From assembly GCA_941918925.1 (NCBI GenBank), contig OW799235.1:19166701-19230700 (forward strand): DNA of 64,000 nt. The letters run 5' to 3'. The DNA comes from Phyto melanocephala. Its lineage: Eukaryota; Arthropoda; Insecta; Diptera; Rhinophoridae. The notes under the pieces are model-generated. The model did no database searches, was not told the origin of the DNA, and worked only from the letters and a program-made list of their open reading frames with translations. Numbering within the stretch: the stretch's first letter is position 1; each line of letters begins with the position of its first letter. The position numbers and the translations under genes are program-made. This document shows positions 7,890-56,110 of the stretch, one piece after another.

Positions 7890-8985
7890 CGTGGCTCCTA
7901 TAAGGAGCATAAGGCCATAACAAACTGGTTCCATTGTGTTTTGTCTGATGCTAAGGTTTTTATTTTATTCCAGCTTTTGTTCTGTGTGATAGCTTCGATT
8001 TTGATTTGACGACGGCAAGTGTGGGATGGTCTAACTCTTCTTCGGCTACCTTGGGGATTCTATTCTATGGCGTTTCTAGTGATGTCGTCATTTGATTTAC
8101 GCAAAGTATGACCTATCCGTTTCCATTTTCTTCTTAATATTACCGTATTTTTATGTTTTTGTCTAGTTTTGTTCTATAATCTTACATTGGATATAGTAAC
8201 TGGCCAACATATTTTTTAGGATTCTTGGAGGCCGCATTCCATAATTCGCAGCCATAAAGAAGAGTGGATTTTATGCAGGAGTTGAATATGTTTACCTTGG
8301 TTCTCTTTGAGATATACGCCGATCGCCATATTGGGTTAAGCTGACCGAATGCTTGTTTGCCATATTTAATTCGGTTTCGAACGTCATCACTAGAGCCCCC
8401 TTTTGTAGTCAGTAAGCTCCGTAATACCAAAATGTTGTAACATCTTCGAGTTCTTGATGGTTAATTGTAAATGATCTATTGTTGGAGGCATGTATTCTCA
8501 TTTACCTTGATTTTGGTAATGTTTATTTTCAAACCAGATCTATCTGCTTCGGCATGAACGGCGTAAAGCTTATCCTGCATGTCGTTGTAATTGTGCGATA
8601 AAAGACAGATATCGTCTGCATAGTCAAGGTCTTTCAGTCTACTTTTAAGTCCCCATGTTATACCCCCCTGCGTGCGTGAGGCCTTACATATTATACTCAC
8701 CAGGACAATATTTAAGAGGAGGGACGACAGCACGCACCCTCGTCTTACTCCGGTTTTAATCTCAAATTTGTCGCTGACAACGCCCTCATGCAGAATACGG
8801 CAGCACGCATTGTGGTATAGAGCCTTTATGAGTTCGACAATCTTGTCTGGGGTACCTTTACATCTTAGTGCGTTCCAAAAAGCCGAATGGGATAGGGTAT
8901 CAAAGGCTTTTTTAAAGACAATGAAGACCAAGTAAAGCGGAGATCTCCATTCAACAGACTGTTCAATGATCTCCTTAGTGTTGGT
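7890..8985 (-). pseudogene. Non-LTR retrotransposon, RT and C-terminal remnant (second family)
   Basis: Read on the minus strand from about 8985: IIEQSVEWRSPLYLVF leads into the RT motif FKKAFDTLSH, then VRRGCVLSSLL (usual VRQGCVLSPLL), then an intact catalytic YADD box near 8620. A C-terminal part follows with TKGGSSDDVRNRI, the LLYGCELW block (near 8235) and, after a frame break, a WKRIGHTLRK...PSHTCRRQI tail near 8120-8010. This layout is typical of non-LTR elements with an endonuclease-RT polyprotein; I do not assign the clade. A stop lies just upstream (about 8995) and frameshifts occur near 8470 and 8180, so it is a 5'-truncated dead copy. It differs from the jockey-like copy at 4.9 kb. 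Confidence 0.82.
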
Positions 8986-34190: not shown

Positions 34191-35475
34191 AGGCGAATTC
34201 ATACAGGTGAAATTATCAGCCCAGCTGATGGGGAAGCATTTTGTCAAAATATCTTTAATTCACCTTGAATTCATTTATTAATGCAGAGATGGAAAATGAG
34301 ATTTTGATTTTGGTATTAAACATTCAACTTGAATGTACTTTTTTATAATAAATGTACCAAAATTTATGAAAATTTGTTGCTTTTGCACCATTTATATACC
34401 GGTTGTTTTTTTCAGTGGTATAGAACTTCGAATTGAAATAAAACACAAGAAAATCGTTTTAATTACCATCAATTTGGCTTTATTGGAAGGATAATTTTAT
34501 GCCATTAATGTTTAAATATGATTTCAGGCATGTGGCCACCGCGGCTGGCTCGAATAAAGCCAATTCTACAGGTCCAATTTTTAACCACTTTTTCGAGCAT
34601 ATGGGGCCGTATGTCGGCAATAACGCCACAAATGTTGGCTTTCAATTCCCCTAACGTTTCTGGTTTGTTGGCGTAGACGAGCGACTTCATATATCCCCAA
34701 AGAAAATAATCCAATGGTGTCAAATCACACGATCTTGGTGGCCAATTGACAGGTCCATTCAGCGAAATTATGTGCTCATCGAATGTTTCGTTCAATAAAT
34801 TGATTGTGGCGTGCGCTGTGTGGCATGTAGCGCCGTCTTGTTGGAACCACAACTCATCCACATTCATGCCATCCAATTCTGGAACAAAATAGTCGGTTAT
34901 CATGGCTCTATACCAGTCTCAATTAACGGTAACTGCCTCTCCAGCATTATATCGGAAGAAGTATGGCCCAGTGACTCCACCAGCCCATAGAGCACACCAA
35001 ACAGTCAGTTTTTGTGGATGTAATGGCGTGTCAAGGGTCTCATGTGGATTCTCTTCACTCCAAATGCGGCAATTTTGCTTGTTGACGTAGCCATTCAACC
35101 AAAAATGAGCCTCATCACTGAACAAAATTTTGCGATGAAAATCAGCATCGAGATCAATCTCATTTCGAAATAAATTTGCACGATTTGCAAGCGTTGTTCT
35201 TTTGTCAACCTGTTCATGATGAAATGGCAAACCAAACTGAACATAAATGACATTAGAGTTGCTAGATTTGGCCACAAAATGCCAGTTTTATCACTTTTCG
35301 AAAAACAAACCTGTAAAAAAAACACCCGGTATATTCTTTTGAAAAACCCAACTTTATTAAATTAATCAAATCACAATAACTTTTCCAACCAAGAATATAC
35401 GAATTGACCTTGAAAGAAAACATACCCTAAAAAGTTGCTTTGTTGTATGAATTCGCCGTTGCATATACCTGGATG
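34191..35475. mobile_element. GGCGAATTC-family terminal-repeat element, copy 2, interrupted
   Basis: Left part GAGGCGAATTCATACAGGTG to about 34396, right part from about 35332 ending AATTCGCCGTTGCATATACC. Its blocks are collinear with 18192-18528 (GCAGAGATGGAAAATGAG, AATTTGTTGCTT, CGAATTGACCTTGA). The mariner-type element at 34399-35329 sits between the halves at a TA dinucleotide. Confidence 0.65.
34399..35329 (-). mobile_element. Tc1/mariner-superfamily element with internal deletion
   Basis: The ends CCGGTTGTTTTTTTCAG and, reversed, CCGGGTGTTTTTTTTACAG are terminal inverted repeats. TA flanks both sides (34397-34398, 35330-35331), the hallmark target duplication of the superfamily. On the minus strand the start reads RLTKEQRLQIVQIYF. 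A deletion and frame change then lead directly to the catalytic core: FSDEAHFWLNG (first Asp), PQKLTVWCALWAGG, WFQQDGATCHTA (second Asp) and WPPRSCDLTPLDYFLWG, with the third Asp about 37 residues after the second. The C-terminus ends RGGHMPEIIF. The helix-turn-helix DNA-binding part is mostly missing and a frame break falls near 34910, so it is non-autonomous. Confidence 0.85.
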
Positions 35476-38092: not shown

Positions 38093-38829
38093 TTTCGAGA
38101 GCGTTTATTCTTACGTTATCATTTTTAAAACTTATTTCAAACATTTTCCTAACAAAAATCATAAGTTTTTGCTATTTTGTTACAATCAAAAATAATTTAA
38201 ACGACTCCCACGTTTTTGTGTGACTGCAAAAATAACGTAACTGACTGAAAAATGTAAGATTCTCAGAATAATTAACAAAATAAACAAATAATTTTACTAT
38301 AAAGAGCAACCAATATTAGCAGATCGATGACTAAATACAAAGAGGAAGTATTTCGCTTTTTTTTCAAAAACATGTTATTAACGTTTTCTGATGATCCACT
38401 AATAAACACATCACTCCTGAAAATTTTCGTAAGCCTGGTTTAAAAATGATGGACTCATAGCCACATAAAAAATGTTTACGCATCTTATTCTTTAAAGTTT
38501 TGTTCGGTTTTTTCCGTCACCTATTAAGAAGTAATAAATTGAGATACGCCCTTTTTATATTAAGCCATCAATATGTAAGTAATAAAAAAAGAAAGAAAGA
38601 AATCAAAAACAAAAATTTGATCCGGCATTTATTCTTTTTTTATTATAAAAAAATTTAAAAACTCAAAAAGAACAATCTGATCTGGCATTAACTAAAGCTT
38701 ATGACATTCAAAAAATATGGTCTGAGGACTGCCAAAAAAAAAACTAATTAAATTGGCTAACTTACCTACTAAAGTTATTAAAAAGTTAAAAAATATTAAT
38801 TATTGGTTTCTTTGACCTTTTATAATAAT
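38093..38829. other. AT-rich DNA, no gene seen
   Basis: Contains A-rich runs, including a GAAAGAAAGAAA stretch near 38590; nothing else recognised. Confidence 0.35.
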
Positions 38830-38900
38830 ATATGTTTAATAGTTTTTTAAGCTTAAGGTCCTTTTAATAATAAAAAATCTTTTTGTTTTGTTTTATATTA

Positions 38901-38947
38901 TTTGATCAATATTTCGCTACTTCTTTGTGTAGCATCATCAGGATAAA
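38901..38947 (-). ncRNA. Hammerhead-ribozyme-like motif, left palindrome arm
   Basis: Mirror image of the motif at 39916-39962. The minus strand reads CTGATGA (38941-38935), a five-pair stem II GCTAC/GTAGC, then GAAA (38915-38912). It is identical in sequence to the right-arm copy. Confidence 0.55.
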
Positions 38948-38963
38948 CGTTTTTTATTATATA

Positions 38964-39785
38964 CTAGCCAAACCCGGCGCGCGTTGCTACGCCCCTTAAT
39001 GAATCGAAATGCATTCTGAATTTTAATTGAATATCAAGTGAAAAAACCTAAAAATTATAATTTTTTTATGGGCGTGGCATTGCCCACTTTTCTAGTCACG
39101 AAATTGTAAAGTCATAACAGCTCAATATGTGTGCAAAGTTTCAGAAGAATCGGACCAGTGCAAGTACCTCAAAATTAAAATTGTTTTTATGGGCGTGGCC
39201 CTGCCCACTTTTCTTATCACGAAATTGTAAAGTCATAACAGCTCAATATGCGTGCAAAGTTTCAGAATAATCGGTCCAGTGCAAGTACTTCAAAATTATA
39301 CCTTTTTTTTATGGGCGTGGCACTGCCCACTTTTCTAATCACGAAATTATTTAGTCATGACAGCTCAATATGTGTGCAAAGTTTCAGAAAAATCAGTCTG
39401 GTGCAAGTACCTCAAAATAATAGCCTTTTTTTATGGGCGTGGCTCCGCCCACTTTTTTAATCACAAAATTATAAAGTCACGACAGCTTAATATGTGTGCA
39501 AAGTTTCAGAAAAATCGGTCCAGTGCAAGTACCTCAAAATTAAAACTTTTTTAGGGGCGTGGCCCCGCCCACTTTTCTTATCACGAAATTATTTAGTCAT
39601 GACAGCTCGATATGTGTGCAAAGTTTCAGAAAAATCGGTCAAGTGCAAGTAGCTAAAACTGATAACTAATTTTTTATGGGCGTGGCCCCGCCCACTTTTT
39701 TTCATCCATAAACACTCCCCGGTATGTGTACAACAACTTGCCAAAGTTTGAGCCCGATCGGTTTTACAGTTTCAGAGTCTATAGC

Positions 39786-39840
<55 letters not shown>

Positions 39841-39870
39841 TTCACTTTTATATATATAGAAGATAGAAGA
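38964..39870 (-). mobile_element. Non-autonomous Helitron with (GT)n head and 120-bp minisatellite, copy 1
   Basis: On the minus strand the 5' end is TCTTCTATCTTCTATATA preceded by A. A (GT)n run follows (39788-39836 on plus), then diverged about 120-bp units carrying GTGGGCGGGGCC(A/C)CGCCC, and the 3' end GCGCGCCGGGTTTGGCTAG followed by T. Helitrons start TC, end CTRR after a GC-rich hairpin-prone segment and insert between A and T without target duplication; all of these are seen. There is no Rep/helicase frame, so it depends on another element. Confidence 0.78.
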
Positions 39871-39915
39871 TTAGTTTTTTGTTGGATTAATTTGGCTAGT
39901 ATATAATAAAAAACG

Positions 39916-39962
39916 TTTATCCTGATGATGCTACACAAAGAAGTAGCGAAATATTGATCAAA
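39916..39962 (+). ncRNA. Hammerhead-ribozyme-like motif, right palindrome arm
   Basis: CTGATGA at 39922-39928; stem II GCTAC (39930-39934) with GTAGC (39943-39947) around an 8-base loop; GAAA at 39948-39951. Type I folding gives stem I ATC/GAT (39919-39921 with 39956-39958) plus two more A-U pairs after a mismatch. Stem III is only A-U, U-A with no loop (39951-39954), so cleavage would follow T39955 and need a dimer. The core is complete but stems I and III are weak. Confidence 0.55.
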
Positions 39963-40033
39963 TAATATAAAACAAAACAAAAAGATTTTTTATTATTAAA
40001 AGGACCTTAAGCTTAAAAAACTATTAAACATAT

Positions 40034-40787
40034 GTTAAAAAATATTTTTAAAAATAAAAAATTATTTTAAAATAATTTTTCGTTCGACAATATTTAATAG
40101 AACAAAATTTCAAAAATTAATTTCTTAAATAGAATTTGCATTTTTGATGCAGTACAAAGCATGTAAGACTCACCCGTCTACAGATAATTTCTGACGACAT
40201 TACTCTGTCGGCCGACAAATTTTATTACATTAAAAAATTACCAGCAAATATTAAAAAAAAAAATATTTGCCGACATAATCAAATTATTTTTTTGTATCCA
40301 ACGTTTTTACTTTTCTTTAAACAAAATCTTGTGCGACATTCTTGATTATCGTAAGATTTTCAAAACACACACTTTATGTCTCGTCCCGTGACACAAGGTA
40401 TTATGGCTGCTTTTCAACTGCAATAAATTTATGACACACGCACACGTTTCCAATAAATATAATACCCTCCCCCTTAAATCTATGAAAAACTGTTTAACAA
40501 CAACAAAATATTTTAAAAATTTACAATAACAAATGACATTTGTAATATAAAGAACAAAATTATTTCAAATATTTTGTTTTTCAAATGCTAATATACAAAT
40601 TTTAAACATTTTTGGATAGAGCTAAAGAGAGGTCGCACGTAAGAACAACAAAATTTATAGACTTTTATATACAACCTGACATTTATGTGTATCTAAGTGT
40701 GTAGGAAAAGTAATTAAGAAAAATTAAGCTAAAATCGTCATAATTTATTATTAAAATATTAAATGTTTTGCGTCTAGAAGCAAAAAA
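40034..40787. other. AT-rich DNA with two decayed satellite-like motifs
   Basis: TTTTTCGTTCGACAATATTT (about 40076) and GTCGGCCGACAAATTTTATT (about 40207) match the array at 32.7-37.2 kb. No gene seen. Confidence 0.4.
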
Positions 40788-52975: not shown

Positions 52976-53921
52976 GCTATAGACTCCGAAACTGTAAAAC
53001 CGATCGGGCTCAAACTTTGGTAAGTTGTTGTACACATACCAGGGAGTGTTTATGGGTGAAAAAAGTGGGCGGGGCCACGCCCATAAAAAATTAGTTATCA
53101 GTTTTAGCTACTTGCACTTGACCGATTTTTCTGAAACTTTGCACACATATCGAGCTGTCATGACTAAAAAATTTTGTGATAAGAAAAGTGGGCGGGGCCA
53201 CGCCCATAAAAAATTTTTAATTTTGAGGTACTTGCAATGGACGGATTTTACTGAAACTTTGCACACATATTGGGCTGTCATGACTTTATAATTTCGTGAT
53301 TAGAAAAGTGGGCAGGGCCACGCCCATAAAAAAAAAGTTATAAGTTTGAGGTACTTGCACTGGACCGATTTTTCTAAAACTTTGCACACATATTAAGCTG
53401 TTATGACTTTACAATTTCATGATTAGAAAAGTGGGCAGTGCCACGCCCATTCAAAAAAAGGTATCATTTTGAGGTACTTGCACTGGACCGATTTTTCTGA
53501 AACTTTGCACACATATTGAGTTATCATGACTATATAGTTTTGTATTTAGAAAAGTGGGCAGTGCCATGCCCATAAAAAAAGGTATCATTTCGAGGTACTT
53601 ACACTGGACCGATTTTTCTGAAACTGTGCACACATATTGAGCTGTCATGACTATATAATTTCGTGATTAGAAAAGTGGGCAGTGCTAGGCCCATTATAAA
53701 AGTTATAATTTTAAGATACTTTCACTGGACAAACTTTTCTGAAACTTTGCACACTTATTGAGCTGTCATTACTATACAGTTTCGTAATTAGAAAAGTGGG
53801 CAGTGCCACGCTCATAAAGAAAAAGTTATAGTTTTTAGCTTTGCACTTGATATTTGATTAAAATTTAGAATGCGATTAAAATTCATGAAGGGGCGTAGCA
53901 ACGCGCGCCGGGATTTTCTAG
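52871..53921 (+). mobile_element. Complete non-autonomous Helitron with minisatellite, copy 4
   Basis: Starts TCTATATCTATAAAAGTG directly after the terminal CTAG of copy 3, with no bases between. A pure (GT)n run (52895-52972), the same head, about six to seven 120-bp units and the 3' end CGCGCGCCGGGATTTTCTAG before T. Its first two or three units are closer to those of copy 3 than to its own later units. Confidence 0.85.
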
Positions 53922-54850
53922 TATAAAATAAAAAATAAAAATTAAAAAACAAAATACTTTACAATATATTTTAATTAAAAAAATTAATAAAATAAATTAA
54001 ATTAAAAAAATTAATATATTTTTTTAATTTAAAAAAATATATTATATTAATTTTAATGAAAAAAAACCAAAAAAATGAAATAATAGTATTATAAAATTGT
54101 CTTAATAAAAAAAATATATATTATTAATTTTAATAAAAACAAAACAAATAAAATAATATTAATTTTAATAAAAAAAAAAACAAAGCAAATGAAAAAAAAA
54201 ATTGAAATTTTTTTAATAAAAAAATAAAACAAATATAAACAATATATTTTATTAACATTTTTTAATAAAAAAAAAAACAAATGAAAAAAATTTATTTTAT
54301 TAATTTTTTTTAATTAAAAAAATATATATTATTAATTTTAACAAAAAAACAAAGCAAATGAAAAAAATATTTTAAAATTCTTTTAATAAAAAAATATATT
54401 TTATTAATTTTAATAAAAAAAATAAAACAAATGAAATAATATTTTGAAATTTTCGTTATAATAAAAATATATATTATTAATTTTAATAAAAACAAAGCAA
54501 ATGAAAAAAAAAATTTTGAAATTTTTCAAAAAAAAAAAAATATATATTTTTTTTTAATTAAAAAAATAAAACAAATAAAAACGATATTTTTTATTAGCAT
54601 TTTTTAATAAAAAAAATATTTTATTAATATTAATAAAAAACAAATGAAAAAAATATATTTTATTAATTTTTTTTAATTAAAAAAATATATTTTATTAATT
54701 TTAACAAAAAAAAAAAAACAAAGCAAATGAAAAAAAAATATTTTAAAATTCTTTTAATAATATAAACATATTTTATTAATTTTAATTAAAAATAATAAAA
54801 CAAATAAAAAAAATATATTCTATTATTTTTTTTTAATTATACAAAATATA
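53922..54850. repeat. AT-only satellite-like array, first part
   Basis: Repeating blocks of the form TTTTTAATAAAAAAATATAT, TTATTAATTTTAATAAAAA and ACAAAGCAAATGAAAAAAA, with a loose period of about 80-100 bases. All minus-strand Phe/Ile-rich open frames here come from the repeat. The array continues after 55170. Confidence 0.8.
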
Positions 54851-54903
54851 TTTTAATTTACTAAATTATTCGGCATATGCTCCCATAATTTTTTAATAAT
54901 ATT

Positions 54904-55168
54904 TATTTGGTTGTTGGGTTTAAGCTGGTTTATATGGGATTAGAAAAATAAAATAAATTAAAATTGAAAAATTGTTGGTTGGGTTTATGAAAAAGTTTTT
55001 TATAGTTTTTTGTTTTATTTTTGAATTCTCCTTTTGTTAATGAGAGTTTAAAAATATAACTTATAAAAATTTTAAACTTTTTCAAGAATTTGGGTAAAGG
55101 TTTACTGATGATCTGGCATAAGCACCAGTGAAATGCATATAAACCAGCTTAAACCCAACAACCAAATA
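54904..55168. mobile_element. Small inverted-repeat element carrying a hammerhead ribozyme
   Basis: 54904-54936 and 55136-55168 are perfect 33-bp inverted repeats (TATTTGGTTGTTGGG...TTTATATG). The intervening about 200 bases are unlike the AT satellite that it interrupts. The right repeat forms the 3' strand of the hammerhead stem I at 55090-55158. No protein is encoded. A sequence like a diverged hammerhead core (CGGCATATGCTCCCATAA) also lies just outside the left repeat, at about 54871. Confidence 0.7.
55090..55158 (+). ncRNA. Type I hammerhead ribozyme, best candidate
   Basis: All core positions fit. CTGATGA is at 55105-55111, stem II CTGG/CCAG (55113-55116 with 55125-55128) has an 8-base loop, and GAAA is at 55130-55133. 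Stem III is AT/AT around GC (55133-55138), then A55139 as the residue before cleavage. Stem I is six perfect pairs, GGTTTA (55099-55104) with TAAACC (55140-55145). Beyond an asymmetric internal loop (AAA against AGCTTAA) it continues with six more pairs, TTGGGT (55090-55095) with ACCCAA (55153-55158). A stem I internal loop facing loop II is where natural hammerheads make their tertiary contact, and the very short stem III is typical of retroelement hammerheads that act as dimers. Cleavage predicted after 55139. Confidence 0.8.
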
Positions 55169-55169
55169 G

Positions 55170-55700
55170 ATATTATTCAAAATATATTTTATTAATTTTT
55201 ATAAAAAGAAACAAAGCAAATGAAAAAGAATATTTTAAAATTGTTTTAATAAAAAAAAATATATATTATTAATTTTAATAAAAAAAAATAAAGTAATAAT
55301 ATTTTGAAATTTTTTTAATAATAAAAATATATATTATAAATTTTAATAAAAAAACAAAACAAATGAAAAAAAATATTTTAATTTTTTTTTTAATAAAAAA
55401 AATATATAATATTAATTTTAATAAAAATAAACAAAACAAATAATACAAAATATTTTCCATTTTTTTAATAAAAAATATATTTTATTAATTTTAATACAAA
55501 AAAAAACCAAAAAAATAAAAAAAATATATTCCATTTTTTTTTATAAAAAATATATTAATAATATATTAATTAATTTTAATAAAAAAACAAAACAAAAAGA
55601 AAAAATATAATTTACAGCTTTTTTAATAAAAAATATATTTTATAAATTTTTCTTATTAAATTAAAAAAATATATTTTATTTATATTTATTTAATTTATTT
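55170..55700. repeat. AT-only satellite-like array, second part
   Basis: Continuation of the array at 53922-54850, with the same ATTAATTTTAATAAAAAAAC and AACAAATGAAAAAAA blocks. Confidence 0.75.
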
Positions 55701-55959: not shown

Positions 55960-56110
55960 AAGTAGGTTTTACCAACTTTATCCGAGTGGAATGCATTTTC
56001 GAAACCAGCTACGATTTCATCATCAGCACTGTTTGATCGCTGATTACGTGTTACTTGTAAATATCATCTATTTAAATCCCAGGTTTTTAAGTTAATTAAA
56101 TTCGGTAACT
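55960..56110 (-). repeat. Interspersed repeat carrying a hammerhead motif (best of three copies)
   Basis: Common segments with 35.6 kb and 48.1 kb are AGTGGAATGCATTTTCGAAA, ACGATTTCATCATCAGCACT and TGTAAATATCATCTATTTAA. The similarity extends about 150 bases. Non-coding; exact ends not found. Confidence 0.7.
55985..56030 (-). ncRNA. Type I hammerhead ribozyme motif (family 2)
   Basis: Minus strand: stem I AGTG (56030-56027) with CACT (55988-55985); CTGATGA (56026-56020); stem II GAAATC/GGTTTC (56018-56013 with 56006-56001) around GTAGCT; GAAA (56000-55997). Stem III AAT/ATT encloses only GC (55997-55990), then C55989 as the residue before cleavage. All conserved core bases are present; stem I is short (4 pairs, then ATC/GAT after an internal loop). 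Confidence 0.72.

Follow-up and report, generated by a model that had tools for sequence, protein, structure and literature searches.

Small hammerhead ribozymes linked to Penelope-like elements (PLEs) are reportedly active as dimers. Metazoan non-LTR retrozymes, which the available text of Cervera and de la Pena 2020 (PMC7229834) states to exist in insects among others, combine type I hammerheads with tandem units of 150–450 bp, a GC content below 50% and duplications of more than 4 bp. The same text leaves the enzyme open between LINEs and Penelope-like elements, and favours the latter on the basis of shared hammerheads, tandem copies and co-occurrence. The purified Penelope-like protein PAc of Anolis (Frangieh 2024, PMC11167929) cuts and extends both DNA strands, prefers AT-rich DNA and has unprocessed RNA as its dominant substrate. 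It uses two internal RNA start sites, the stretch between which is the optional 30–40-bp ‘tail’ of genomic copies, and one start lies about 85–92 nt past the hammerhead cut (our arithmetic from 111–118 and 26). A hammerhead is also carried by the Dolichopoda satellite pDo500, in which, according to the available part of the source (PMC2837043), G10.1–C11.1 is conserved and compensatory changes occur. Here, we describe a stretch of 64,000 nucleotides from the fly Phyto melanocephala (the window) that probably holds a non-coding retrozyme insertion, with a hammerhead predicted to cut multimeric RNA into units that are likely circularised and then likely copied by a Penelope-like reverse transcriptase. 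The element is a retrozyme of the metazoan non-LTR type. Its insertion ends point to the enzyme of a Penelope-like retroelement as the likely copying agent; cleavage, circles and enzyme are what we infer from genomic copies.

The initial annotation had reported a complete type I hammerhead within a small inverted-repeat element, and a type I hammerhead is indeed present at that site, at 55099–55145, with cleavage predicted after 55139. The features are listed below, with counts from 58 instances that were picked up through their similarity to the core (up to 9 substitutions), so that conservation among them is flattered.

55099–55145, plus strand: type I hammerhead motif, from a covariance-model match and conservation among copies
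55099–55104, plus strand: stem I, 5′ strand, 6 pairs with 55140–55145
55140–55145, plus strand: stem I, 3′ strand, partner of 55099–55104
55105–55111, plus strand: core CUGAUGA (C3 to A9; CTGATGA in DNA), CUGANGA in 55 of 58 instances
55112–55129, plus strand: stem II hairpin with loop CAUAAGCA, U10.1 (55112) and U11.1 (55129) mismatched
55113–55116 with 55125–55128, plus strand: stem II pairs CUGG/CCAG, 4 pairs
55119–55123, plus strand: loop II UAAGC, predicted pseudoknot partner of 55147–55151
55147–55151, plus strand: GCUUA just beyond stem I, predicted pseudoknot partner of loop II
55130–55132, plus strand: core GAA (G12 to A14), 57 of 58 instances
55133–55138, plus strand: stem III AUGCAU, 2 pairs around GC, self-complementary, ATGCAT in 55 of 58
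55133 and 55138, plus strand: A15.1–U16.1, read from the sequence
55139, plus strand: A17, cleavage predicted 3′ of this base, A in 56 of 58 instances
55090–55095 with 55153–55158, plus strand: outer pairs beyond stem I, 6 pairs

The type I core is complete (C3 U4 G5 A6 N7 G8 A9, G12 A13 A14, A15.1–U16.1 and H17, with stems I–III and an open stem I), and stem III is as it had been described, two pairs around a 2-base loop, here GC within the palindromic ATGCAT; read from the sequence, this palindrome would pair in a dimer. The statement that every conserved position is present fails at 10.1–11.1 (55112/55129), where a pair is expected (usually G-C) and a U-U mismatch is found, as it is in 57 of the 58 copies. 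This is the most conserved pair of stem II, and its mispairing is a point against the hammerhead reading. The six plus six pairs said to flank the core are all found in the window copy, but the outer six are lost in the L598–L608 subfamily and are therefore not needed. Loop II is wholly complementary to GCUUA at 55147–55151 (5 bp), a five-pair complementarity that is reached by 2.1% of random loops of the same size and composition; both strings are retained in 42 of the 58 instances, without any two-sided change. The region just past stem I is a usual place of the contact between stems I and II. With these corrections the hammerhead observation is confirmed as real, self-cleavage being a prediction. 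Pseudoknots between stems I and II are predicted in about 40% of hammerheads according to the available text of Perreault et al. 2011 (PMC3088659), which also treats U10.1–U11.1 as a natural variant, shown earlier to support more cleavage than does any other mispair, and drops matches mispaired at 10.1–11.1 from its final alignments.

The same mispair occurs in viral loci, where we found 17 distinct U10.1–U11.1 motifs, some of them near-identical (stem I of at least 5 pairs, stem II of at least 3 and stem III of at least 3). Loci with such U-U motifs include L305, L242, L257, L267, L486, L497, L544, L557 and L498. A17 followed by U1.1 is seen in 14 of the 17, as in the window copy. The remaining U-U motifs have U17, whereas motifs with G-C at 10.1–11.1 have C17 in 99 of 110 cases and A17 in 10 of 110 (one search pattern fixed A2.1, none fixed base 17). 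A coupling of 10.1–11.1 with base 17 in viral hammerheads is thus possible, and the fly copies add a hammerhead family that retains U10.1–U11.1 with A17 almost throughout the 58 instances. A further type-I-like form, in which an extra U separates A9 from a G-C-closed stem II, was observed at L169 (1469, 2083, 3155 and 4371) and in 18 other viral loci; it accounts for 22 of 118 pattern matches (stem I of at least 5 pairs, stem III of at least 2), some identical. Locus L169 additionally holds a pistol ribozyme.

The covariance-model check that had been proposed gave no match for the window motif in Rfam, where the RF00163 cut-off is not reached; formally this is the refuting outcome named in the initial annotation, yet Rfam also misses comparable motifs. 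Among pattern-selected hammerhead-like loci of IMG/VR viral contigs only one of eight reaches that cut-off, and in a second set of eight viral loci, one in common with the first, the hammerheads score 20–30 bits, below the cut-off. Ten extra-U motifs in 7 viral loci give no hammerhead match at E ≤ 0.1 and six U-U motifs from viral loci give none at E ≤ 5; the extra-U motif at L196 3943–3998 scores 39.4 bits with RF00008, under the cut-off of that family. The controls show the models to be insensitive, and the negative result is therefore not decisive. A separate covariance model, R1, was built without the window from 36 hammerhead-like motifs of viral contigs, including 7 U-U rows that were picked after the candidate had been seen. 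It finds the site as its sole match in the 64-kb window up to E 10 (55098–55147, 26.1 bits, E 7.4e-5, a rough value as are all E-values of this model). The exact terminal pattern of the element has no match in the viral contigs.

The flanked core had also been called very unlikely by chance. Under an order-2 Markov null, a core with stem I of at least 6 pairs and stem II of at least 4 is expected 0.011 times per 64 kb, and 0.0002 times once a short stem III and an outer stem are required as well. A chance motif is thus unlikely in one window, but across the whole genome matches of this kind are expected, and the claim holds for the former only. Motif matching alone is insufficient, because a looser match also turns up at 56026 on the minus strand; as a second ribozyme this candidate was rejected, being missed by R1 and lying in a frame that reads SADDEIVAGFENAFHSDKVGKTYLFKEKLKI and gives us the impression of an exon (Pfam returned no match for the frame). 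The motif at 55099–55145 is taken as real because of its genome-wide copies, their conservation and one compensated pair.

We searched the genome (740 Mb, 9 contigs) with the whole element, scoring 40 of 521 candidates at first, and with the 35-nt core, which has 3,809 matches at up to 3 mismatches (1,989 + 1,820); the reversed core pattern, used as a control on the whole genome, has none. The copies form head-to-tail arrays of units of about 355–375 nt, one array comprising at least 11 units, and among the first 100 exact cores on contig C1 there are 26 same-strand neighbours at distances of up to 700 bp, 24 of them with a spacing of 358–362 bp. Thirty distinct complete units, from 10 loci plus L589, fall into two subfamilies, with lengths of 354–367 nt (one of 343) in subfamily 1 and 375 nt (one of 374) in subfamily 2. 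Between the subfamily majority strings, 52 of 54 hammerhead columns are identical compared with 241 of 326 elsewhere (Fisher p 8e-5), and the two hammerhead differences constitute a single compensated stem I pair, U-A to C-G, a change also present in the L598–L608 copies, which came from the whole-element search rather than the core search. Chance was rejected as the origin of the motif on this conservation between subfamilies together with the 3,809 core matches. In two units the longest stop-free run of the circular unit is 54 amino acids, with no open reading frame for a reverse transcriptase and GIY-YIG endonuclease, and the GC content is 0.22 and 0.24. Neither an LTR nor a primer-binding site or polypurine tract was noticed in the units.

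Covariation is confined to that one pair. Across 22 distinct rows, 92.5% of cells are paired, compared with 25–45% for slid partners, and two-sided changed cells number 4 against a shuffled mean of 1.4 (8 of 500 shuffles as high); the covariation score is matched by 39 of 500 shuffles. Neither the number of pairs with such a change, reached in 406 of 500 shuffles, nor that of pair types, reached in 484, is in excess. All six stem I pairs are intact in 40 of the 58 instances and every core position and stem pair in 35. These incomplete copies, the array L610 with a broken stem I pair and the U-U mispair would suit a retrozyme relic, with an inactive hammerhead inherited and the copies spread as a satellite by DNA recombination. 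We regard such a relic as improbable, given that the insertions are scattered with differing flanks, that 16 of 40 have flanking repeats and that the hammerhead is more conserved than the remainder of the unit, with a compensated change.

The window copy itself is a single insertion, with the following parts.

54856–55177: whole retrozyme insertion, 322 bp, head to head, bordered by 14-nt direct repeats and matched to unit L624/L609
54842–54855: left target-site duplication CAAAATATATTTTA, with only two occurrences in the window, both at this insertion, and none on the other strand
55178–55191: right target-site duplication CAAAATATATTTTA, 14 nt
54856–54936, minus strand: inverted arm, covering the unit from near position 77 down to 1, together with the final bases of the ribozyme
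54937–55177, plus strand: direct arm, starting near unit position 155, crossing the ribozyme and reaching position 38 of the unit that follows

Measured from the cleavage site, the right outer end is thus 38 nt further on; the left one is 77 nt beyond the mirrored cleavage site. The surrounding DNA (window 53900–55700) is an AT-rich repetitive stretch. An inverted repeat does exist where one had been described, but it belongs to a head-to-head insertion whose arm varies from copy to copy. The window copy ends in 33 perfect inverted pairs, which speaks for a MITE, a short DNA transposon with terminal inverted repeats and a hammerhead-like motif by chance; the reading is rejected because genome copies show a variable or absent inverted arm. 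Arm length and junction differ between copies, so that no terminal inverted repeat is fixed, and the inverted arm is missing altogether in 15 of 40 insertions. With head-to-tail arrays, asymmetric ends (38 versus 77) and a motif conserved above the rest of the unit as further points against it, a MITE is very hard to credit. The annotated alternative, a short non-coding and non-autonomous ribozyme-bearing retroelement, is borne out by the genome-wide copies, the tandem 355–375-nt units, the conservation, the compensated pair and the target-site duplications.

Insertion structure was determined for 40 clusters of exact cores, taken one after another along contig C1 out of its first 100 such cores and without regard to resemblance to the window copy. 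Omitted were four clusters (starts 147221, 11567097, 31791736 and 33106690) and those after 36786964, and insertions without an exact core are unsampled, because the core was the basis of selection. Twenty-five of the 40 are head to head with their 3′ ends outward, none is arranged the opposite way and 15 have a single orientation. The outer ends of the head-to-head insertions fall largely into two groups (44 of 50, all of these at unit positions 20–115), about 31–48 and 78–102 nt past the cleavage site, with the remaining six at 14, 199, 204, 220, 233 and 244. One end lies in each group in 19 of the 25 and both ends share a group in none, with L657 (ends at 14 and 33, arguably one group) coming closest to an exception. 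The 3′ ends of single-orientation insertions all belong to the same two groups (11 at 32–48 and 4 at 78–90). Flanking direct repeats of at least 12 nt (12–20 nt) border 16 of the 40 insertions compared with 1.7% of mismatched pairs; four of the 16 are near-homopolymers (L641, L645, L653 and L662). Because arm calling relied on BLAST in AT-rich DNA, individual rows may be wrong; orientation counted from exact cores alone (contig C1, neighbours within 700 bp) is independent of arm calling and gives 14 diverging pairs and 1 converging.

A first sample of 39 copies (L570–L608) consisted of the best matches to the window copy, and its structure is therefore biased towards that copy. Its 34 distinct insertions with both ends comprise 22 head to head, 11 single and 1 converging, the last (L612) resting on low-complexity pieces. 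In this biased sample 35 of the 44 outer ends of the head-to-head insertions fall at unit positions 20–115, with one end in each of 20–60 and 70–110 in 14 of 22 and both in the same group in none.

With ends at two internal positions 3′ of their hammerhead, the copies show the ‘tail’ pattern of Penelope-like insertion. The initial annotation had drawn the link to Penelope-like elements from stem III alone, and the insertion ends now support it independently. The same retrozyme could instead depend on a target-primed enzyme of the LINE type and on ordinary twin priming: target duplications of such length and 5′ inversions are also established LINE traits, the window contains a fragment of a reverse transcriptase (RVT_1; 8476–8985, minus strand), and the search of the genome with PF01541 returned no Penelope-like endonuclease. 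We think this unlikely, albeit the strongest of the competing readings, as two discrete internal starts, the same RNA stretch in both arms and one site per arm fit Penelope-like biochemistry better (PMC11167929). The PF01541 search of the whole genome gave a single GIY-YIG match at E ≤ 0.001, which is SLX1-like, and the negative for a Penelope-like endonuclease is weak because the profile may not reach the Penelope-like branch. We take the match to be the host SLX1; it lies beside what is presumably a MED31-like gene.

None of the 40 insertions ends at the cleavage site itself. An insertion copied from a self-cut linear unit would do so while retaining a full core, which makes a circle or an uncut multimer the likely template, and readthrough of the cleavage site fits the multimer as well as the circle. 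A strong hairpin lies at unit position about 108–157 (L624:2199–2248), and 22 of 43 distinct sites of the unit-155 motif, at the base of this hairpin, have no unit sequence just upstream; the hairpin is a likely stop for reverse transcription.

For the Penelope-like route that we favour, these observations suggest the following scheme. Multimeric RNA would be cleaved after A17 into unit lengths, possibly most efficiently in dimers that pair by way of the palindromic AUGCAU, and the unit RNAs would be ligated into circles. At an AT-rich target both strands would be cut, and each 3′ end would prime copying at one of the two internal RNA sites. The two cDNAs would extend back across the ribozyme, itself uncut or re-ligated, would in many cases stop at the hairpin base and would then be joined head to head; extra rounds on the circle would produce tandem arrays. 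That the retrozyme parasitises a Penelope-like enzyme in this manner, with one circular RNA primed at two tail sites at once by both cut strands to give head-to-head and often multi-unit insertions, is a proposal for which we hold confidence and doubt in equal measure.

Folding predictions concern both the unit and the window copy. The 69-nt window stretch gains no stability over shuffled versions of itself, 59 of 200 of which match it, and in a linear 133-nt stretch of the L624 unit the hammerhead does not form. Two full units folded as circles retain stems I and II in their minimum-energy structures and are more stable than shuffles (z of −8.2 and −4.4). In the window copy the inverted arm would pair with stem I, and the energy cost of imposing stems I and II is 13.5 kcal/mol; for a transcript that begins at 54940, stem I has a probability of 0.81. 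Because its inverted arm sequesters stem I, the window copy would probably be silent unless transcribed from within.

Window positions 38798–40033 hold another head-to-head insertion, which is interrupted by what we take to be Helitron-like sequence. Its motif is hammerhead-like (CTGATGA-U-GCTAC...GTAGC-GAAA, on the plus strand at 39922 and on the minus strand at 38941), with a hammerhead-like element at 39891–40037. Its 13-nt direct repeat GTTAAAAAATATT, at 38785 and 40034, occurs only these two times in the window, and its ends lie roughly 78–82 and 108–111 nt past the putative cut. This insertion is possibly a Penelope-like tail or another retrozyme. Elsewhere in the window, two frames at 34505–35287 (minus strand), which have no match in Pfam, presumably represent a mariner-type transposase.

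Among the literature matches listed, no paper ties Penelope-like start sites to retrozymes, and among those listed for hammerheads or retrozymes with Diptera none has a ribozyme term. If the proposal is true, the one-site-per-arm footprint would be a first genomic trace of the enzyme that moves animal retrozymes, and of a circular template. The end signature, about 31–48 and 78–102 nt past the cut on both target strands with one site per arm, is countable, resembles the Penelope-like start sites seen in vitro (PMC11167929) and lends itself to tests on any genome or on the purified enzyme.

Compared with the small PLE-linked hammerheads reportedly described by Lunse 2017, the fly motif has an equally very short stem III, but here it sits in a non-coding tandem unit. 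With the Dolichopoda pDo500 satellite, in the available part of its description (PMC2837043), it shares the hammerhead-bearing tandem repeat of an insect and differs by U-U in place of G10.1–C11.1. The metazoan retrozymes of PMC7229834, as far as the available text goes, have in common with it the type I hammerhead, tandem 150–450-bp units, low GC content, duplications and a paired circle with a free ribozyme, the last being predicted here; they differ from it by the U10.1–U11.1 mispair of 57 of the 58 instances and by the head-to-head insertions with two end sites, which that text does not describe (‘inverted repeat’ has 0 occurrences in it). Unlike PAc (PMC11167929), the fly element has no open reading frame, and its end groups are about 40–60 nt apart rather than 30–40 bp. 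What it shares with this Penelope-like element is the hammerhead, the tandem copies, two internal sites, AT-rich targets and, presumably, the extension of both strands.
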